Positions 1-42,545 of a stretch of 42,545 nucleotides of DNA are shown in pieces. Position 1 is the stretch's first letter. Each line of letters begins with the position of its first letter. The notes beneath the pieces were generated by a model that was not told the DNA's origin, searched no databases, and saw only the letters and a program-made list of their open reading frames with translations. Made by a program: the position numbers and the translations under genes. This DNA comes from a virus: the IMG/VR virus record IMGVR_UViG_3300027573_000062, positions 1 through 42,545 of that record; one strand, written 5' to 3'.

Positions 1-9
1 CAGACGATC
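1..9. repeat. 9-bp end overlap, left copy
   Basis: CAGACGATC here equals the last nine bases (42537-42545). Merging them keeps the primase/helicase in frame. Too short to be a functional terminal repeat; best read as a contig closure overlap. Confidence 0.75.
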
Positions 10-302
10 ATTGGCTCGCCGGGCGCCCACGTCATCTGCTCAACTGGCCGGTTGCGGTCGAGCCACTTGCTGGCCTTGAGGCGTTTCTGTCCGTGCGCGC
101 CGAAGACTGGATGGCCGTCGTCATCCACTTCGGGCACGCCGGGTAATCGGGCGTCGACACTCGCCATCGGCCACAGCTCGCGCGTCGGCGCGAACAGATA
201 GGCATGCGCGGGCATGTAGGCATAGAAGTCGTCGAAGTCGACGGCGCCGGCTGGCGGCGGGACGTGCGTGAGTGGTTTGGCGCGAACGCGCTCTGAACTC
301 AC
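1..302 (-). CDS. Primase/helicase (DUF5906-like), N-terminal part; continues at the other end of the window
   Basis: This is the first ~100 residues of a phage replication protein whose remainder lies at 41483-42545. Visible family features are an FYAYMP motif (residues 26-31), PTRELWP (39-45) and the WLDRNRPVEQMTWAPGEP stretch (80-97), which I recognise from the DUF5906 / phage primase-helicase family. Reading runs off position 1 in frame and, after merging the 9-bp end overlap, continues as IVCDRLVADAGW into the distal part. I chose GTG at 302 because an in-frame stop lies just upstream and the conserved region starts soon after. No Shine-Dalgarno (SD) sequence precedes this GTG. It overlaps the stop of a 9-codon reading frame as GTGA, so coupling is likely. 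Confidence 0.88.
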   Translation of the reverse strand, partial: MSSERVRAKPLTHVPPPAGAVDFDDFYAYMPAHAYLFAPTRELWPMASVDARLPGVPEVDDDGHPVFGAHGQKRLKASKWLDRNRPVEQMTWAPGEPMIV

Positions 303-5067: not shown

Positions 5068-6400
5068 GTTTCATCTCCTCGGCCATGAAGGCGAACATTT
5101 TGTCGGCGGCGGCGGCCTTGCGCTGAAGGTTGCCGAGCACATCGGCCTCGCCCTGTGTCGTGATGACGCTGACGTTGACGTCGCGCGTCTGTCCGTAGCG
5201 CCAGCAGCGGCGCACGGCCTGGTAATACTGCTCGTAGGAATGCGACGGAAACATGCTCAGGTTCGCGCAGTGCTGCCAGTTGAGCCCGAACGCGCCGATC
5301 TTCGGCTTGGTAATCAACACCCGCAGCGAGCCCGCCGTGAACGCGTCGAAGAGTTCCAACTTCTGCTCATCGCTCTGCGTGCCGCTGACCTGATTCGAGC
5401 CGTCGATGAGGTGCTCCAGCAGGTCGGCCTCGTCGTTGAGGTGACACCACGCGACAAACTTGTCGGCGCCCTGCGCGATGGCCTCCACCGCTTCACAGCG
5501 CTCCTGAATCGTGGAGCGGCGCTCGAGGCGCTGTTCCGGCAGCGTTTTCGCAGCGGTCACGAACAGATGCCCCGGCATCGGTCGTGACGCTTCGACCGTG
5601 ATGACGCGTTCGTTCAGCGCCGGCAACCGCAAGCGGTCGTCCGCGAACGGGCCGACGTCGGACGGCTTGCGCGCCGCGCGTGCCCAGCCGCACATCCACT
5701 GCCAGAACGGGCGTTCGGCGTGCGGCTTGAAACGCCACTTCGCTCCGTGCGACAGCGGCGCGAGAGAGGATTCGTCGTTCTTGAAAAACCGCGTCAGCAT
5801 ATCGACGTGCCCGAGCTCGCCGAGCGCCTCGGAAGACGTGCCGAGTTCGACGTAGTCGTTCGGAGCGGCCGTGGCCGTGCAGAGCAGACGATACGGCAAC
5901 AGGCGCATGAACTCGGTGACGGTGGCTTTCGTCACGCCGTCGAAGTTTTTCAAGATGCTGGACTCGTCGCAGACCGCGCCCGCGTAACGAGACGAGTCAA
6001 ACAGGTGTAGCCGTTCGTAGTTCGTCACGATGATGCGCGCGTCGTCGGTATGCTTGCCGGTGGAACTGCGCTCGCACGGAATGCCGAACTTCGCGGCCTC
6101 GCGCACGGTCTGCGACGAGGCCGCGAGCGGCGCGACGATGAGCACGGGCCGGTTCGTGTGCTGGATGACGTTCTGTGACCAGACGAGCTGCATCGGCGTC
6201 TTGCCCATGCCGCAATCGCAGAACAGCGCGCCGCGTCCCTTGCGCGTGGACCAGTCCACGAGATGCGCTTGGAAGTCCATCAGGAAATCCGGCATCCAGA
6301 GCGGCGCGAAGCCGTGCAGGCCGCCTAGTTGGCGCTTGGATTCGAGGAACGCGGCGTAGCTACTCACCGAACACGCCCCTTGCCAACCGTTCGCGTTCAT
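5042..6400 (-). CDS. SNF2-like superfamily 2 helicase/translocase, 452 aa
   Basis: Motifs: LWMPDFLMDFQ (34-44), Walker A GMGKT (64-68), a DESS box in place of DEAH (145-148), TATAAP (175-180), and motif VI QAVRRCWRYGQ (394-404). I recognise the phage DEAD/DEAH helicase usually found next to a DNA methyltransferase, as here. ATG 6400 has AGGAG seven bases upstream but overlaps the previous gene by 41 bases. GTG 6367 is a good alternative, because family similarity begins around SSYAAFLESK and it overlaps the previous stop by 8 bases. Likely an ATP-driven DNA translocase aiding replication or recombination. Confidence 0.92.
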   Translation of the reverse strand: MNANGWQGACSVSSYAAFLESKRQLGGLHGFAPLWMPDFLMDFQAHLVDWSTRKGRGALFCDCGMGKTPMQLVWSQNVIQHTNRPVLIVAPLAASSQTVREAAKFGIPCERSSTGKHTDDARIIVTNYERLHLFDSSRYAGAVCDESSILKNFDGVTKATVTEFMRLLPYRLLCTATAAPNDYVELGTSSEALGELGHVDMLTRFFKNDESSLAPLSHGAKWRFKPHAERPFWQWMCGWARAARKPSDVGPFADDRLRLPALNERVITVEASRPMPGHLFVTAAKTLPEQRLERRSTIQERCEAVEAIAQGADKFVAWCHLNDEADLLEHLIDGSNQVSGTQSDEQKLELFDAFTAGSLRVLITKPKIGAFGLNWQHCANLSMFPSHSYEQYYQAVRRCWRYGQTRDVNVSVITTQGEADVLGNLQRKAAAADKMFAFMAEEMKRATTNGHD

Positions 6401-24355: not shown

Positions 24356-27150
24356 CACGCGACCTGCACGATTGAGCCTTCAACGTTGTAAGTGACGGTC
24401 GTATACGTGCCCGCCGCTTGCGTGCGCAGCGTGATCGACGTCGCTGACTTGCACCGGATGTGCATCGGCACGCCTTCGTAGGGACCGGCCCCGGTCACGT
24501 TCGTGATCGCCGTGACGAGCACGCCCGAGAGTTGCGAGAACGTGATCGTGAGGACGCGCGCCGCGTTTGTCTCGTCGGTGTAGGCGCACTCGGCCGTGAA
24601 GCTGTGCGCGGTGCTCGTCGTGACGTTGATATTCATCGAGACGACGAACGTGCCGTCTGCCGCGCCGACCGTGTAGGCCGCCACCGATGCGACCGCCGCC
24701 GTCTGCGCCGTCGAACGCGCTGACCCGTAGATCGCCGGATGCCCCCAGCCCGCCGTCACGATGCTGTTGTAGGTCGTGTTCTTGCCGCCGAGCTCCAGCG
24801 TCCCGCCGAGGTAGTTTCGTGCGCCGGTATCGACCTGATAGATGCCGTAGGCTTGATTCGTCTGCGTCCCGGCCGTCACGTCCCCGATGTAGAGCCCGTA
24901 GGTGTTCGTGATCGTGCCGAGATTAATCAGGTCGATAACGCGCAGACCATAGGCGCTCGTCGCCGTGACGCTGGCATGGTTGACTTCGGCGCTCACCCGC
25001 GCGCCGATAATCGTCGTGACTGTGCCGCTCGTCGCACCGTCCGACTTCGCGTTGAAACTGCCGCCGACAAGGTCCGTGGCGAGTCCTGAGGCCGTAGCGA
25101 TACGCGCAGATCCGGAGTAGGCAACGAGCACGTTTCCAGAGTGCGTATTGCTGGATTCGACAATAGCTTCGATGCCGCCAGCGCGTCCAAATTCCTGGTT
25201 CCCTGCAAAGCGAAGCTGGAACAACATCCAATTGACAGGGTTATTGTTGCCGTTGGTATTGTTCGTGATCGTAACGTTGCCGGAGAATCCGGCGTTGCCC
25301 TTGATGTAGGAAAATGCCGTCACGCTCGGCAGCGTCACGTCCTTACCGAACCCGAACGAGCTGTCGTCGCGGATAGCGAACGTGTCGGTTCCGCCAGAGT
25401 CCTCTGTCAGCAGCGACACCGTTGACAGCGTCGTGCCTGCGCCCTTGATATGCAGCCGTGCCGCGAGAGATGCGTTCGCGCCGAGCCCGAGGAAGTTCGC
25501 GCTGTCATCCCAGAAGAAATTCGCATTGTCCTGCGAGTAGACGCCTGACGCGCCTGCGAACACGACCGACCCAGCCGTCAGCGCGGTGCCGGTCCCGGTG
25601 CCACCGCGCGCGACCGAGAGCGTGCCGGTCCACCCGAGCGTCATCGACGTCGCCGCGAGCAGCGCGGTCGTAGGACTGCCGCCGAGCGTCAGCGTGACGT
25701 TCGTGTCGTCAACGCGCGTGAGCGCTTGGCCGTTCTCGAGGAATGCAAACGTCTTGCGCGTCGGACCAGTGGTCATCGTCGCGTAATACGCGTCGGTCAG
25801 AAACTCGATCGCGCCCGCTTCTGGAGCCGTGAGCAGTGGTCCAGATGTGAGCTTCAGCGGTGCCGTGCCGGCAGCCGTCGTGCCGGCCTTGATGTGCGCG
25901 AAGGCCGTTGGTGACGTCGTGCCGACTCCGAGTCGTCCAATCGAGTCAATGCGGACGCGTTCAACGAGCGAGCCTAAGCCGCCCAGCGGCATCGTCAGGA
26001 ACTGGATATAGCCGGAGATGTCGGTGGCGACGACATCCTCTACGACCATGCCTATTTCAGCGACGGAATAACGGGAAGTTCCGTTATACGCCTCCGATCC
26101 CCACAGTCCAATCAACATGCCAGCCGAAACAATCGTTGGCGCGCTGAGCGTGCCGCCAGACCTGACGCTGCGCAAATAGAGGCCCGGTAGATGGAAGTTC
26201 ACCGACGACGCCGCAACGCCCTGCAGCGTGCCAGAAGCCGCGCCCGTGAGCAGCGCGACAACAGCGCCTGGAAGCAATGAGGCGTCCGGTGCGTCCCCTC
26301 CGTCATTGACGTGTAACGGGCGTTTAGGGGTTGGTGTGCCGATGCCGAGTTTATTGTTGGTGTCGTCCCAGAATAGGTTGGCGTTATCCTGCCCGTAGGT
26401 ATCGGTCGCGCTGGCGAACACGACTGAACCGGCCGTGACGGCGTTCGGGAGCTTCAGCGTCGACCACAGCGGTGCCGTCGCCACACCGCCTGAGCGCAGA
26501 TACGACCCGACCGCGACGTCTGCGAGCGTGGCGAGTTGCGTGGCGCTCACCGCGTAGAGCAAGTCGCCTATGACGAAGCCGGTCGGCAACCCCGCCATCG
26601 ACAGCACGCCGCCGCTGAGCGACAAGCCGCCTGCGACTTCGATTTCCTCGGCATCGCCTTCGCCGTCCGTCGTGCGTCCGAGCAGCCGTGGCGACGACAT
26701 CGTAATGCGCGTGAACGGCAGTTGCGGGATCTGGTCGGGGTCAAGCGGACCGATGATGGACCCGGAATCGACGAGCGGCGCCTGTTCAATGCGGCGCTTG
26801 GCCTCCATCAGCCACTTCGGCGCGCCGTAGATGTCCAGCGTGTAGTCAGCCGTGACCGGCACGCGCGGCATGAGTTGCGTCGAAGGATTGCTGTAGGTGT
26901 AGAGTCCGACACCCGTGCCGACGCCAGCGACGATGACATCGACGGCGCCGACGTTGTGCGATGGCGTCACGGCCGTGATGCGCGTGTTGCTCACGACAAC
27001 GAAGGACGTCGCCGCGCCGCCACCGAACGTCACGCCGCCAGTCGCAAAGTCGAAGCCGAAGCCGGTAATCGTGACGGCGGTGCCGCCCGCGATGGTGCCA
27101 CCGCTCGGGGTGACGCGGGTCACGCTGGTGAAGGTGTAAGTGTCGCTCAT
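24355..27150 (-). CDS. Tail fibre with N-terminal IPT/TIG domain, 931 aa
   Basis: An IPT/TIG immunoglobulin-like domain occupies about 10-92 (TPSGGTIAGGTAVTITGFGF). A linker with IPQLPFTRITMSSPRLLGRT leads into long beta-rich fibre repeats, including two copies of a TAGSVVFA...QDNAN(L/F)FWDD module (about 236-264 and 522-550). LGVGTTSPTAFAHI and IEFLTDAYYATMTTGPTR are familiar fibre stalk elements. It ends with a beta C-terminal domain. Largest protein of the window and probable receptor-binding fibre. ATGA overlap at its start. Confidence 0.85.
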   Translation of the reverse strand: MSDTYTFTSVTRVTPSGGTIAGGTAVTITGFGFDFATGGVTFGGGAATSFVVVSNTRITAVTPSHNVGAVDVIVAGVGTGVGLYTYSNPSTQLMPRVPVTADYTLDIYGAPKWLMEAKRRIEQAPLVDSGSIIGPLDPDQIPQLPFTRITMSSPRLLGRTTDGEGDAEEIEVAGGLSLSGGVLSMAGLPTGFVIGDLLYAVSATQLATLADVAVGSYLRSGGVATAPLWSTLKLPNAVTAGSVVFASATDTYGQDNANLFWDDTNNKLGIGTPTPKRPLHVNDGGDAPDASLLPGAVVALLTGAASGTLQGVAASSVNFHLPGLYLRSVRSGGTLSAPTIVSAGMLIGLWGSEAYNGTSRYSVAEIGMVVEDVVATDISGYIQFLTMPLGGLGSLVERVRIDSIGRLGVGTTSPTAFAHIKAGTTAAGTAPLKLTSGPLLTAPEAGAIEFLTDAYYATMTTGPTRKTFAFLENGQALTRVDDTNVTLTLGGSPTTALLAATSMTLGWTGTLSVARGGTGTGTALTAGSVVFAGASGVYSQDNANFFWDDSANFLGLGANASLAARLHIKGAGTTLSTVSLLTEDSGGTDTFAIRDDSSFGFGKDVTLPSVTAFSYIKGNAGFSGNVTITNNTNGNNNPVNWMLFQLRFAGNQEFGRAGGIEAIVESSNTHSGNVLVAYSGSARIATASGLATDLVGGSFNAKSDGATSGTVTTIIGARVSAEVNHASVTATSAYGLRVIDLINLGTITNTYGLYIGDVTAGTQTNQAYGIYQVDTGARNYLGGTLELGGKNTTYNSIVTAGWGHPAIYGSARSTAQTAAVASVAAYTVGAADGTFVVSMNINVTTSTAHSFTAECAYTDETNAARVLTITFSQLSGVLVTAITNVTGAGPYEGVPMHIRCKSATSITLRTQAAGTYTTVTYNVEGSIVQVA
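25503..25587 (-). repeat. Internal fibre repeat, copy B
   Basis: About 85 bases, roughly 70% identical to 26361-26445. Encodes LTAGSVVFAGASGVYSQDNA followed by NFFWDD. Confidence 0.65.
26361..26445 (-). repeat. Internal fibre repeat, copy A
   Basis: Partner of 25503-25587. Encodes VTAGSVVFASATDTYGQDNA followed by NLFWDD. Suggests growth of the fibre by duplication. Confidence 0.65.
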
Positions 27151-38919: not shown

Positions 38920-40413
38920 TCAACCTGCCCACGACATGTCCCCGCGTAGCACAGGCCCCGTCGCCGTGCGCGGCTGACGCGGCACGGCCACCGCCTGGGC
39001 GAACGTCAAACAGAACGCGTCCGCGTCATCCGGGCTCGTCTCGCCGCGCGCCTGGATGTCGGCTTTCGACTCGATGACGAGCTTCCCGCTGTTGTTTAAG
39101 TGGTAGCCCGGCAGGCACAACTGCTCCGCGAGCTTCTCGTCGTTCGGCAACGCGCCAAGCTGTAGCCATTCCTTCGTCTTCGCCCACATGTAGGCCCGCA
39201 TGTTCAACTGGTGCGCGTCCGGACTCGCGCCGCCGAAGTTGATTTCGTAGACGTTCGTGAAGCCGAGCGAGCGCAGCCGCACCACGATCGCCGCGCCGAA
39301 TGCCGAATCGACGAACATCGCCGCTAACCTATGGCCCGCGCGCTGGTCACGCAGTAGCTCCGAGCAGATGCCGATGCGCTGCGAGCGGTCAGGGTCATGC
39401 TCGCCAGGGATGCGGATCGGCTCGCGCACGTTCCCGTTCAGCCCCTGCCGGAACCGGATGACGTTCCATGCCTTGCCGCCGCCGGAGACGTCGAAGCCGG
39501 CGATGATCGGCTCGTCTGATAGCGCAGCCTGCGCGCGGGCGCGGGCGGCCACGACACGGGCCTTGTCGATGTATTGCAGCTCGCTCGCCGACGGCGGGTA
39601 GCCGAGCACGCGCACGCGCACCATGTCGGACTCGAGCCCGTAGTCCTGAATCCAGCGATCGAGCAGCGCCTTGTTCGTGAAGCGCGACGTGCGGCTGTCG
39701 ACGCGGCGTGTGTTCCATCGCGCGGACTCGCTGCCGAACGCGACCTTGTAGAACTGACCCGTATTGCGCACGGGCTGACCCCAGACGAACCACATCGGCT
39801 CGCCGTCCGAGAGGCCGCCGCTCGCCGTCTCCCAGATTTTATCGGGAACCTCGGACGCCTCGTCGAATAGATACCAGCTCGTGCTGGTGCGCGCGTGCTG
39901 GCCGGCGAACGACTGCGCGTTTTCTTCCTTGCACGTCTGCGCGCCGACCTTCCACGTCGAAGGAAACGACTTGTGAAAGATCGCACGGCTCTGCACCTCG
40001 AACCAGTGCGCCGTGAGGCAGAGCGACGTCCAGTAGCGAATCGCCGCCCAGGTGCGCGTTTCGAGCTGCGTGGCTGTGCCCGCGGTCACGGTGCCCTGGC
40101 TGTGCGGACGCGTGCTGAGAATCCAGTTCGTGATCCAGCCGCCCATCGCGGATTTGCCCGTGCCGTGGCCGCTTGTTTCGGCCATCTGGATCGGCATCAC
40201 GGGGTTGACCCCGTCGAAGCCGCGCGCTTGCACCTCCGTGCCGAGCGCCGTGAGGAATTCGCGCTGGTTCTCGTCGGGTCCGGTCTCGTGCTCGAGCGGG
40301 CCCGGCTCTCCCCACGGGTAGCACGCGATCACGAAGCCGAGCGGATCGTCGTAGAACTGGCTGACGAAGTCGGCGAGGGAGGCGTCGGGGGAGGAGGAGA
40401 CGGGTTGGGTCAT
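38920..40413 (-). CDS. terL: Terminase large subunit, 497 aa
   Basis: The DNA-packaging motor. ATPase: Walker A GHGTGKS (82-88), Walker B WYLFDEAS with Asp184 and Glu185. Nuclease: Asp308 in AGFDVSGGG, Asp369 in FVDSAFG and the SPDDADAF cluster (462-465), consistent with the RNase H-like three-aspartate site. Length is normal. ATG 40413 overlaps the upstream stop as ATGA; earlier in-frame starts lie in the previous gene. Cuts and pumps concatemeric DNA through the portal. Confidence 0.95.
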   Translation of the reverse strand: MTQPVSSSPDASLADFVSQFYDDPLGFVIACYPWGEPGPLEHETGPDENQREFLTALGTEVQARGFDGVNPVMPIQMAETSGHGTGKSAMGGWITNWILSTRPHSQGTVTAGTATQLETRTWAAIRYWTSLCLTAHWFEVQSRAIFHKSFPSTWKVGAQTCKEENAQSFAGQHARTSTSWYLFDEASEVPDKIWETASGGLSDGEPMWFVWGQPVRNTGQFYKVAFGSESARWNTRRVDSRTSRFTNKALLDRWIQDYGLESDMVRVRVLGYPPSASELQYIDKARVVAARARAQAALSDEPIIAGFDVSGGGKAWNVIRFRQGLNGNVREPIRIPGEHDPDRSQRIGICSELLRDQRAGHRLAAMFVDSAFGAAIVVRLRSLGFTNVYEINFGGASPDAHQLNMRAYMWAKTKEWLQLGALPNDEKLAEQLCLPGYHLNNSGKLVIESKADIQARGETSPDDADAFCLTFAQAVAVPRQPRTATGPVLRGDMSWAG

Positions 40414-40673
40414 CGCGTCGGGTATCGCAGCGTCAGCGTCAGCGTAGCCATGCGTGCGCACACAGACCACGCAAGCCCGTGCCGTCGATAGTTGCGTACC
40501 ATCAGCGGCCATCGTAGGACGCGCTTCCAGAGCGGGCGCACGCGAACGCTCGCGATGAACTCGGCGACGGGGTCACGTTGCCATTCGTAGCCGCATTCCA
40601 AGCACTGCCATGGTTCTGTGATGCCGTTACAGCGCGGGCAGTGTGTGTGAACCGTGCAGTCGCAGCGCGTCAT
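40410..40673 (-). CDS. 87-aa zinc-ribbon plus Trp/Arg-rich protein
   Basis: The N-terminal CDCTVHTHCPRCNG and CLECGYEW form a zinc ribbon. A C-terminal RVRPLWKRVLRWPLMVRNYR and HGLAW segment is paralogous to the 69-aa protein at 15116-15325. ATGA overlaps at both ends. It may link nucleic acid and membrane or a protein partner. Unknown function. Confidence 0.65.
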   Translation of the reverse strand: MTRCDCTVHTHCPRCNGITEPWQCLECGYEWQRDPVAEFIASVRVRPLWKRVLRWPLMVRNYRRHGLAWSVCARMATLTLTLRYPTR

Positions 40674-40891
40674 ACCGCCCCGCCTCCAGGCACGTCGGCG
40701 CCGATGTCGGGCGGCTGCGCTAGCCGCGCGTGACTGTATTGCGAGAATAACATCGCCACGTTACCGCGCAAAACTCGTTCGCACAACTCTCGTTCGTCTG
40801 CGCTCGCTTCTCGGAAGTCGTAACCGTTCTCGCTGACGGTAACGCGTCCGTTGACATCACGGTAGTAGTGCTTGCGTGTTGCGCACTCCAT
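40670..40891 (-). CDS. 73-aa hypothetical protein
   Basis: MECATRKHYYRDVNGRVTVS, then FREASADERELCERVLRGNV and a Pro/Gly-rich end. ATG 40891 overlaps the terminase small subunit stop as TGATG; a GTG three bases earlier is possible. Unrecognised. Confidence 0.55.
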   Translation of the reverse strand: MECATRKHYYRDVNGRVTVSENGYDFREASADERELCERVLRGNVAMLFSQYSHARLAQPPDIGADVPGGGAV

Positions 40892-41310
40892 CACTGTCCC
40901 TCCCTCTTCCGCTTCGCCAGCCGGTCCCGCGCCGCCGTGAGCCGCTCAGTCACCGCCAGCTCGCCCGACAGCTTCAGCTCCTGCGGCTGCTCCGCCGGCT
41001 TGTCGAGTAGTCGATTCATCAGGTCCGTAAACGCCTGGACGCTGGGGTCTTTCTCCCAGACTTCAATCGCGTTCAGCGACTGGTCAACCGTGTCGATGTC
41101 CTTCACGCGCTCGAAGCGGCCCGACTCCTTGTCCCGATACACCAGGTAAGACAGGCCGCGAGCGTGGGAGATTTGCGCGGCGATCATGCTCGGCATCTCG
41201 GGCCCGAGAATATCGCGCGCTTTCTGACGGAGCGCAATCTTGTCGGCCGTGAGGTAGTTCGGGTGCCCCTTCTTCGCGCCAGCACCTGGGCGCTTTCCAC
41301 CGCGTGGCAT
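40891..41310 (-). CDS. Putative terminase small subunit, 139 aa
   Basis: The basic N terminus MPRGGKRPGAGAKKGHPNYL has the GGxRxGAGxK motif common in phage small terminases. Helices follow (ADKIALRQKARDILGPEMPS) and a coiled C terminus (AVTERLTAARDRLAKRKREG). It is first in the late operon, two genes before the large subunit. It would bind packaging-initiation DNA. No SD precedes ATG 41310; a TATGAT box lies 11 bases upstream. Confidence 0.7.
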   Translation of the reverse strand: MPRGGKRPGAGAKKGHPNYLTADKIALRQKARDILGPEMPSMIAAQISHARGLSYLVYRDKESGRFERVKDIDTVDQSLNAIEVWEKDPSVQAFTDLMNRLLDKPAEQPQELKLSGELAVTERLTAARDRLAKRKREGQ

Positions 41311-41321
41311 ATGGTCAACAA

Positions 41322-41327
41322 ATCATA
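41322..41327 (-). promoter_or_regulatory. -10-like box for the late operon
   Basis: TATGAT on the minus strand, 11 bases before the terminase small subunit ATG, which lacks an SD. No -35 at a correct distance is visible. A transcript would have a leader of only a few bases. Confidence 0.3.
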
Positions 41328-41352
41328 CGCCGGGCGTCAACCCATCCGGTCC

Positions 41353-41492
41353 AAATCAGTGACATCGGTGAAGTCAGTGATCGCAGATCCGCACTATAAA
41401 TTCTCTCTCGCGCGCGCATGTTTCGTGAACACTGACTTTATTGATTTATAGCGGGGATCTAGAATCATTGACTTCTCTGATTTCACCGATTA
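41353..41492. repeat. Large imperfect palindrome with iteron-like repeats; candidate origin or control region
   Basis: Arms of 49 bases (41353-41401 and 41444-41492) pair with 38 matches around a centre at 41422.5. Copies of AARTCAGTGA occur at 41353-41362 and 41371-41380 on plus, and at 41429-41438, 41465-41474 and 41474-41483 on minus, the last three with one or two mismatches. ATCGGTGAA occurs once per arm or once with one mismatch. Each arm also carries a TATAAA box 18 bp after an AAGTCA. The region is AT-richer than the genome and next to the primase/helicase gene. A replication origin or a promoter/operator region is inferred. Confidence 0.6.
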
Positions 41493-42545
41493 ACGAGGGA
41501 TTGGACGGACGCGAACCGCGCAGGCATCGGGAGCGATTCTTTCGCGTAAACCACACAGCGTCTACCACTTACGACCCATAGACCGTCTTTCGCGTGAGGG
41601 CTACGGACAGCGACGTAGCCGACCGTTTCGAGACGGTGCGGGATGAGTCGGCTGTTCTTGCGGTCGGTGAGCCAGTCGGCGAACGCCTTGGGCGTGGGCG
41701 ATTCGGCAATGAGGGCGACGGTGAGCGCGTCGGGTTCGCCATGCGTGGATACGGCGTCGGCTATCTCGGCGTCTTCGGGCGTGCGTGACGCGTCCACGAT
41801 GGCCCAGAATGCGGCCGTCTTCGCCGGCGGCGCCTTCGGGTTCCACTCCTCGATGTCGTGCGCCTGGAGCCACGCAGCGACGTGCGCAGTGCCGCCGGAC
41901 GCGAACCACGCATAGAGCGCTGTGAAGTAGTCCGCGTCGAAGTCGTCTTGCGTCAGCTCGGACCACGCGACGTAGTGCCGGCGATCGTCGGCGGGGAGGT
42001 AGAGCCCGTTGGTTTTGTGGTTCGTCGTGATGATGACGCCGACGATGTTCTGGATGGGATACTCGCGGAGGTTCTTCTCGTCGACGCGGATGACGTCGGG
42101 CGGTGCGGCCGTGTAAAGCTTGCAGCGTTCATAGAACGCGTAGCGATCGATTTCGCCGAGGTCGCGGGCCTCGCTGATGCGGAGGATGACGGATTTCGTG
42201 AAGGCGTTGAAGCGGCCGACGAGCGCCGGCGCGGGAATGTCGCCCATGTTCCACGGACCGATCGCCGCGGACACAGGCTCGAGAATCGTATCCTTGCCGA
42301 TACCCGGCTTGCCGCCGAGCACGAGCGCGTGATTGATTTTCTCTTGAGGATGTTGGACACGCTGCGCAAGCCAACGCAGAATGTGCTCGGCGTCGCCTGG
42401 GTAGACCGTGCGGACGTGATCGACCCACGGCTGCGCGAGTGCGGGGTTGCCACCGACGAGCACGGGCGGTCGATAGAGATTGAAACACCGCGAGCCGGGA
42501 CGCTCCACCCATCCGGCATCGGCGACGAGTCGATCGCAGACGATC
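41483..42545 (-). CDS. Primase/helicase (DUF5906-like), ATPase part; begins at the other end of the window
   Basis: Distal ~350 residues of the protein that begins at 302. Walker A GGKPGIGKDT lies at about 175-184 of the joined protein. The helicase core continues with RFNAFTKSVILRISEARDLG, YTAAPPDVIRVDEKNLREY and GVIITTNHKTNGLYLPADDR, then RHYVAWSELT and a C-terminal AIPHRLE-type helix. This is the SF3-like ATPase domain of DUF5906 proteins. Stop TGA lies at 41483-41485, inside the palindrome. Likely the replicative helicase/primase. Confidence 0.93.
   Translation of the reverse strand, partial: IVCDRLVADAGWVERPGSRCFNLYRPPVLVGGNPALAQPWVDHVRTVYPGDAEHILRWLAQRVQHPQEKINHALVLGGKPGIGKDTILEPVSAAIGPWNMGDIPAPALVGRFNAFTKSVILRISEARDLGEIDRYAFYERCKLYTAAPPDVIRVDEKNLREYPIQNIVGVIITTNHKTNGLYLPADDRRHYVAWSELTQDDFDADYFTALYAWFASGGTAHVAAWLQAHDIEEWNPKAPPAKTAAFWAIVDASRTPEDAEIADAVSTHGEPDALTVALIAESPTPKAFADWLTDRKNSRLIPHRLETVGYVAVRSPHAKDGLWVVSGRRCVVYAKESLPMPARFASVQSLVNR
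42537..42545. repeat. 9-bp end overlap, right copy
   Basis: Same CAGACGATC as positions 1-9; see the left copy. Confidence 0.75.

Follow-up and report, generated by a model that had tools for sequence, protein, structure and literature searches.

The locus raises the question of what an element of mirrored short repeats does between the replication gene and the terminase genes of a phage. The window, meaning the whole stretch of DNA that was analysed, was IMG/VR virus record IMGVR_UViG_3300027573_000062, taken whole at 42,545 bp. The same 9 bp (CAGACGATC) are found at both record ends (window 1-9 and 42537-42545) and the helicase gene crosses the join as one 457-codon frame; on these two grounds the contig was taken to be a complete closed circle, which it very probably is despite the short overlap. 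The record contains P22-like portal and coat genes and a large terminase gene. A PICI is a satellite without capsid or portal genes of its own, and the record was therefore classed as a phage, not a PICI. The terS-position gene gave no Pfam or PHROGs match. Coordinates of the features are collected in Table 1.

Table 1. Features of the putative origin region and adjoining genes (window positions)
Feature	Position	Strand	Remarks
DUF5906 (SF3/D5-like) helicase, 3' part of gene, putative initiator	41483..42545	-	continues at 1-302 across 9-bp overlap
5' part of the same putative initiator gene	1..302	-	GTG at 302
Predicted C-terminal winged-helix domain, proposed iteron reader	41531..41779	-	block mean pLDDT 63-92, mostly above 78
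Putative origin: inverted iteron arrays around AT-rich core	41353..41492	.	repeat pairing, AT content
First arm (gene direction): tandem iterons TCGGTGAAA, TCAGAGAAG, TCAATGATT, 9-bp spacing	41463..41489	-	overlaps helicase stop codon
Second arm, inverted: tandem iterons TCAGTGACA, TCGGTGAAG, TCAGTGATC, 9-bp spacing	41356..41382	+	
Two more degenerate iterons within core: TCAATAAAG, TCAGTGTTC	41427..41444	-	
Core between arrays, likely melting region	41383..41462	.	both CTATAAAT boxes (41394-41401 +, 41444-41451 -)
Core element ACATGCGCGCGC	41410..41421	-	common to L003, L014, L019
terS-position gene, next after helicase/origin region	40891..41310	-	small terminase by position only
Large terminase, after terS-position gene	38920-40512		

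The initial annotation had described a palindrome centred on 41422.5, at least five inward-pointing copies of AARTCAGTGA and, in each arm, a TATAAA box 18 bp after an AAGTCA, all beside the replication gene and overlapping its stop; each of these observations held. Between the arms (41353-41401 and 41444-41492), 38 of 49 positions are paired across the centre; no arm pair in the genome does better, and the next best at that spacing reaches 26. Sixty genomes simulated from a first-order Markov model and scanned at 41 spacings gave a mean maximum of 29.5 and a highest value of 32. The 42-nt centre of the repeat is not palindromic. AARTCAGTGA is present in five inward-pointing copies, exact at 41353 (+) and 41371 (+) and with one mismatch at 41474 (-), 41465 (-) and 41429 (-); elsewhere in the genome there is a single one-mismatch copy, at 24441. 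Both AAGTCA-N18-TATAAA boxes are present and the pattern has no further match in the genome.

The arms also carry a 9-bp period that had not been named earlier. Identity at a lag of 9 was 14/21 and 13/21 in the two arms, and other lags from 5 to 12 gave at most 7 matches. Because of this period the iteron unit is better written TCRGTGAWR, in three tandem copies per arm. Simply counting iterons with mismatches allowed gave, as a test on its own, p 0.04 for the window; this test is too weak for the locus, whose iterons are degenerate and whose context is GC-rich.

The arrangement was compared with the rep-ori of SaPIs and other PICIs, in which the origin lies directly 3' of rep, two iteron sets flank an AT-rich region and the C-terminal domain of Rep recognises them (PMC7581432, PMC6092414). 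The inverted arms, with three tandem 9-mers each, lie immediately 3' of the putative initiator gene, the first arm overlapping the stop codon of the DUF5906 helicase, and they coincide with the AT maximum: of all 140-bp segments in the closed genome, the one beginning at 41353 is richest in AT (57% AT vs 35%). The helicase itself was modelled with AlphaFold (353 residues, 11-sequence alignment, mean pLDDT 71.8). The C-terminal unit, in the better-predicted part of the model, shows the typical winged-helix order, helices first and then a strand-turn-strand. Best matches in Foldseek were the C-terminal region of NrS-1 phage polymerase, PriRep1 on dsDNA (7pds), SaPI5 Rep (7ola) and poxvirus D5-type helicases, with TM-scores of 0.4-0.56 and large rmsd, so that the likeness is at fold level only. 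The DUF5906 assignment, the predicted winged helix and these structural matches together describe an SF3/D5-like helicase with a C-terminal DNA-binding domain, as in a PICI-type rep-ori.

Relatives sharing the downstream genes were represented by three contigs: L003 (terS-position gene 89% and TerL 97% identical to those of the window), L019 (terS-position gene 81%) and L014 (TerL 80%). Just before the terS-position gene each has the same layout: repeats at a spacing of 8-9 bp, then AT-rich DNA that includes ACAYGCGCGC, then the repeats in inverted orientation. The iterons differ, being GGTCCATAC in L003, ACGTCCAAT in L019 and GTWGCCCWT in L014, and the window iteron profile found no cluster in any of the three. 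The replication gene differs from that of the window in both contigs that retain one: L019 has a D5/Pox_D5-type helicase (Pfam Pox_D5 above cut-off, C-terminal RFX DNA-binding domain below cut-off) and L014 a VapE-type helicase. The L003 contig stops short of its replication gene. Conservation of the repeats in close relatives, on which the initial annotation had staked its reading, was thus found for layout and position; the repeat sequence is not conserved and changes in step with the initiator.

Immediately ahead of the terS-position gene and near its start codon there is also a conserved TTGAC...TATGAT block (window 41300-41345, L003 100-140, L019 2010-2050) and no obvious ribosome-binding site. 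This block could act as the promoter of a transcript nearly without leader.

Relatives sharing the helicase were sought separately. Searches with the initiator alone found no close relatives in the viral contigs and genomes covered; DUF5906 loci were reached by an alignment-based search with a three-sequence alignment as query. This gave DUF5906 helicases at 12 loci, with 46-56% identity over the joined protein, and within the stretches examined of these loci the terS-position gene and large terminase of the window had no match. Inverted short repeats occur within about 300 bp of the helicase stop in 11 of the 12, including GGTCGTGAA in L107, L108, L110 and L111, TCGGTGATG in L112, the 10-bp GAGGGGTGAT in L113 and CAGGGACAT in L116. 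L109 (53% identical helicase, 100-kb contig) has tRNA-like genes after the helicase and no iterons there (5123-5480); either its origin must lie elsewhere or the helicase is not an initiator in that contig. Around the gene in cultured phages with distant homologues (∼30% identical), no iterons were seen by eye.

In both L118 (score 123; shuffle mean 42.6, and 0/200 shuffles reached the observed value) and L112 (67.6, p 0.005), the best cluster of the window iteron profile lies directly after the helicase stop. Within the window's own family, what may point to a match between iterons and C-terminal domain is that these two loci share its iterons. Since the clusters occur in L118 and L112 and in none of L003, L014 and L019, the iterons go with the helicase and not with the terminase genes.

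A wider survey was made of VapE-type helicases. Eighty loci were fetched and 72 distinct regions were scored, comprising 70 VapE regions, the window and L019. The mean inverted-repeat score was 8.97 for the 72 regions, versus 3.47 after shuffling and 3.72 for 133 control segments taken from these loci; the window scores only 4 in this exact-match test because its iterons are degenerate. The histogram of tandem spacings peaks at 9 bp (55 runs), the next value being 16 runs at 12 bp. For 36 distinct VapE-type loci, iteron similarity, measured by shared repeated 6-mers, correlated with C-terminal domain similarity at r 0.63 and with helicase core similarity at r 0.45. The partial correlation of iterons with the C-terminal domain given the core was 0.54 (Mantel p 0.0005, by a label permutation that leaves some phylogenetic dependence) and the converse was negative. 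Co-variation was tested in the VapE group because distinct members of the window's family were too few. From this co-variation we infer that the predicted winged helix of the window's helicase would likewise read its iterons.

By eye, the layout was also seen in the cultured Marinobacter phage PS3, Pseudomonas phage vB_Pae_U5, a Staphylococcus triavirus and Bordetella phage BPP-1. In BPP-1 (L152), 9-bp inverted repeats (TTTGCCTCG, two copies) lie at about 26.6 kb, near the stem-loop origin proposed for its near-twin BIP-1, and that stem-loop may really be an iteron pair. In the triavirus (L155), GATGCAACA-type repeats in both orientations follow the VirE/VapE gene, which suggests the same origin type in these Staphylococcus phages.

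The central element ACAYGCGCGC is distributed differently from the iterons. It is common to phages with three helicase types, namely the window, L003, L014, L019 and the VapE relatives L021-L027 and L031, a pattern that would fit a core tied to the phage lineage or host, with exchange limited to the arms. A TATA tract near this element is common to the same set of origins, with their differing iterons and helicases (window 41410-41421). As a universal part of such origins the element was rejected, being present in 2/57 regions of the other VapE clade and in 2/26 control segments.

On the anatomy and position of the repeat, its recurrence beside homologous and analogous helicases and the co-variation in VapE relatives, 41353-41492 is very likely the replication origin of this phage, read by the C-terminal winged helix of the helicase, with gene and iterons forming one exchangeable cassette. 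The winged-helix domain of the DUF5906 helicase encoded upstream would bind the two inward-facing 9-bp iteron arrays. Two ring helicases, as two hexamers, would probably assemble head to head on the AT-rich core, the mirrored arrays setting the rings to face each other over it. Melting of the core and loading of the rings would then give bidirectional, theta-type replication, and the helicase gene and its iterons would move together between genomes.

Cumulative GC skew, which the initial annotation had proposed as a further sign of an origin, did not bear this out. The closed genome reaches its minimum at 41591, 169 bp away from the centre; the amplitude does not exceed chance (p 0.27), however, and only 36% of bootstraps place the minimum within 1 kb. 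In four other phages with this layout the skew gave no consistent signal. GC skew was therefore rejected as an uninformative origin test.

The region could instead be a late-operon control region, with operator or activator sites in the iterons and -10 elements in the TATAAA boxes, one of which would serve the terminase operon. The region does lie directly upstream of the terS-position gene and the large terminase, AAGTCA-N18-TATAAA is mirrored, and several relatives retain the TATA tract next to ACAYGCGCGC. However, no sigma-70 promoter pair (-35/-10 hexamers, 16-18 nt spacing) was detected in 41250-41560, and in L003, L014 and L019 a TATA-rich tract is kept only on the first-arm side, the second-arm box being missing. 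An exact search of viral contigs for the window's promoter-like box gave no match. Iterons moreover recur after the helicase despite other downstream genes, for example in L118 and L112, and their sequence differs between phages whose downstream gene is still 81-89% identical. A control region in place of an origin is accordingly improbable. Of the earlier interpretation, the iteron origin beside the replication gene is strongly supported by comparison with relatives, as a putative origin, and the convergent transcripts from mirrored promoters were not upheld. A control-region role could coexist with an origin, and a promoter inside the core, activating the origin or serving late genes, is possible as an addition.

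Two further readings are weaker alternatives to the origin reading. The functional form might be a cruciform or hairpin, an idea put forward for pRN1 and Bordetella phage BIP-1, and not an array of duplex sites; pRN1 cannot replicate without a 100-nt stem-loop located 3' of its replication gene (PMC4234260), and a single strand of the present region folds at -22.3 kcal/mol (z -3.1). Inverted iteron arrays necessarily resemble a stem-loop, however, and a hairpin accounts neither for the unvarying 9-bp spacing of the tandem units nor for the way iterons co-vary with the winged helix, which makes it very unlikely. Headful packaging in P22-like phages starts at a pac site, but that this is such a site, recognised by the small terminase, is scarcely credible despite the P22-like gene set (portal, coat) and the adjoining terS-position gene, since a near-identical terS-position gene (89%) stands beside quite different arms in L003 and iterons occur where that gene has no match.

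Read as an origin, the element is of a kind already known, the PICI-type rep-ori (Ubeda 2007 as described in PMC7581432; PMC6092414), with which it shares an origin immediately 3' of an initiator helicase gene and, probably, a C-terminal domain that sets specificity. It differs in belonging to a complete P22-like phage with a DUF5906 helicase and 9-bp tandem units, the comparison being one of layout and not of iteron sequence. pRN1 and the origin proposed for BIP-1/BPP-1 likewise have an inverted-repeat element of ∼100 nt 3' of a primase/SF3-helicase/winged-helix gene, its sequence diverging between relatives while the architecture is constant, but in pRN1 and BIP-1 it was described as a stem-loop without iterons (PMC4234260). 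At the putative origin of SCCmec Cch2, short repeats lie just downstream of a D5-type helicase gene and are bound in vitro by the C-terminal domain of Cch2; there, in contrast, three 5-nt direct repeats were enough for binding and deletion of the inverted repeats had no effect (PMC7581432). The alpha protein of satellite phage P4 is also a helicase whose C-terminal winged helix binds origin repeats (PMC4234260); it is fused to a bacterial (Toprim) primase, and is likened here by protein and not by ori layout.

A 2018 study held the rep-ori organisation to be unique to phage-parasitic islands, with no other known replicon having it (PMC6092414). The many full-size phages with this layout, cultured ones among them, run against that statement. 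No description of the phage instance or of its breadth was found in the open papers searched. Whether inverted 9-bp iterons 3' of a D5, VapE or DUF5906 helicase form an origin general in tailed phages, with initiator and arms swapping between close relatives and the AT-rich ACAYGCGCGC core staying with the lineage, we regard as evenly balanced.

Origins are unmapped in most phages, and the rule that inward-facing 9-bp repeats directly 3' of a D5, VapE or DUF5906 helicase mark the origin would predict it from sequence. The pairing of iteron and winged helix can be tested directly, and a recognition code could be built on it. If such a two-layer origin is general, phage replicons would have readable incompatibility types.
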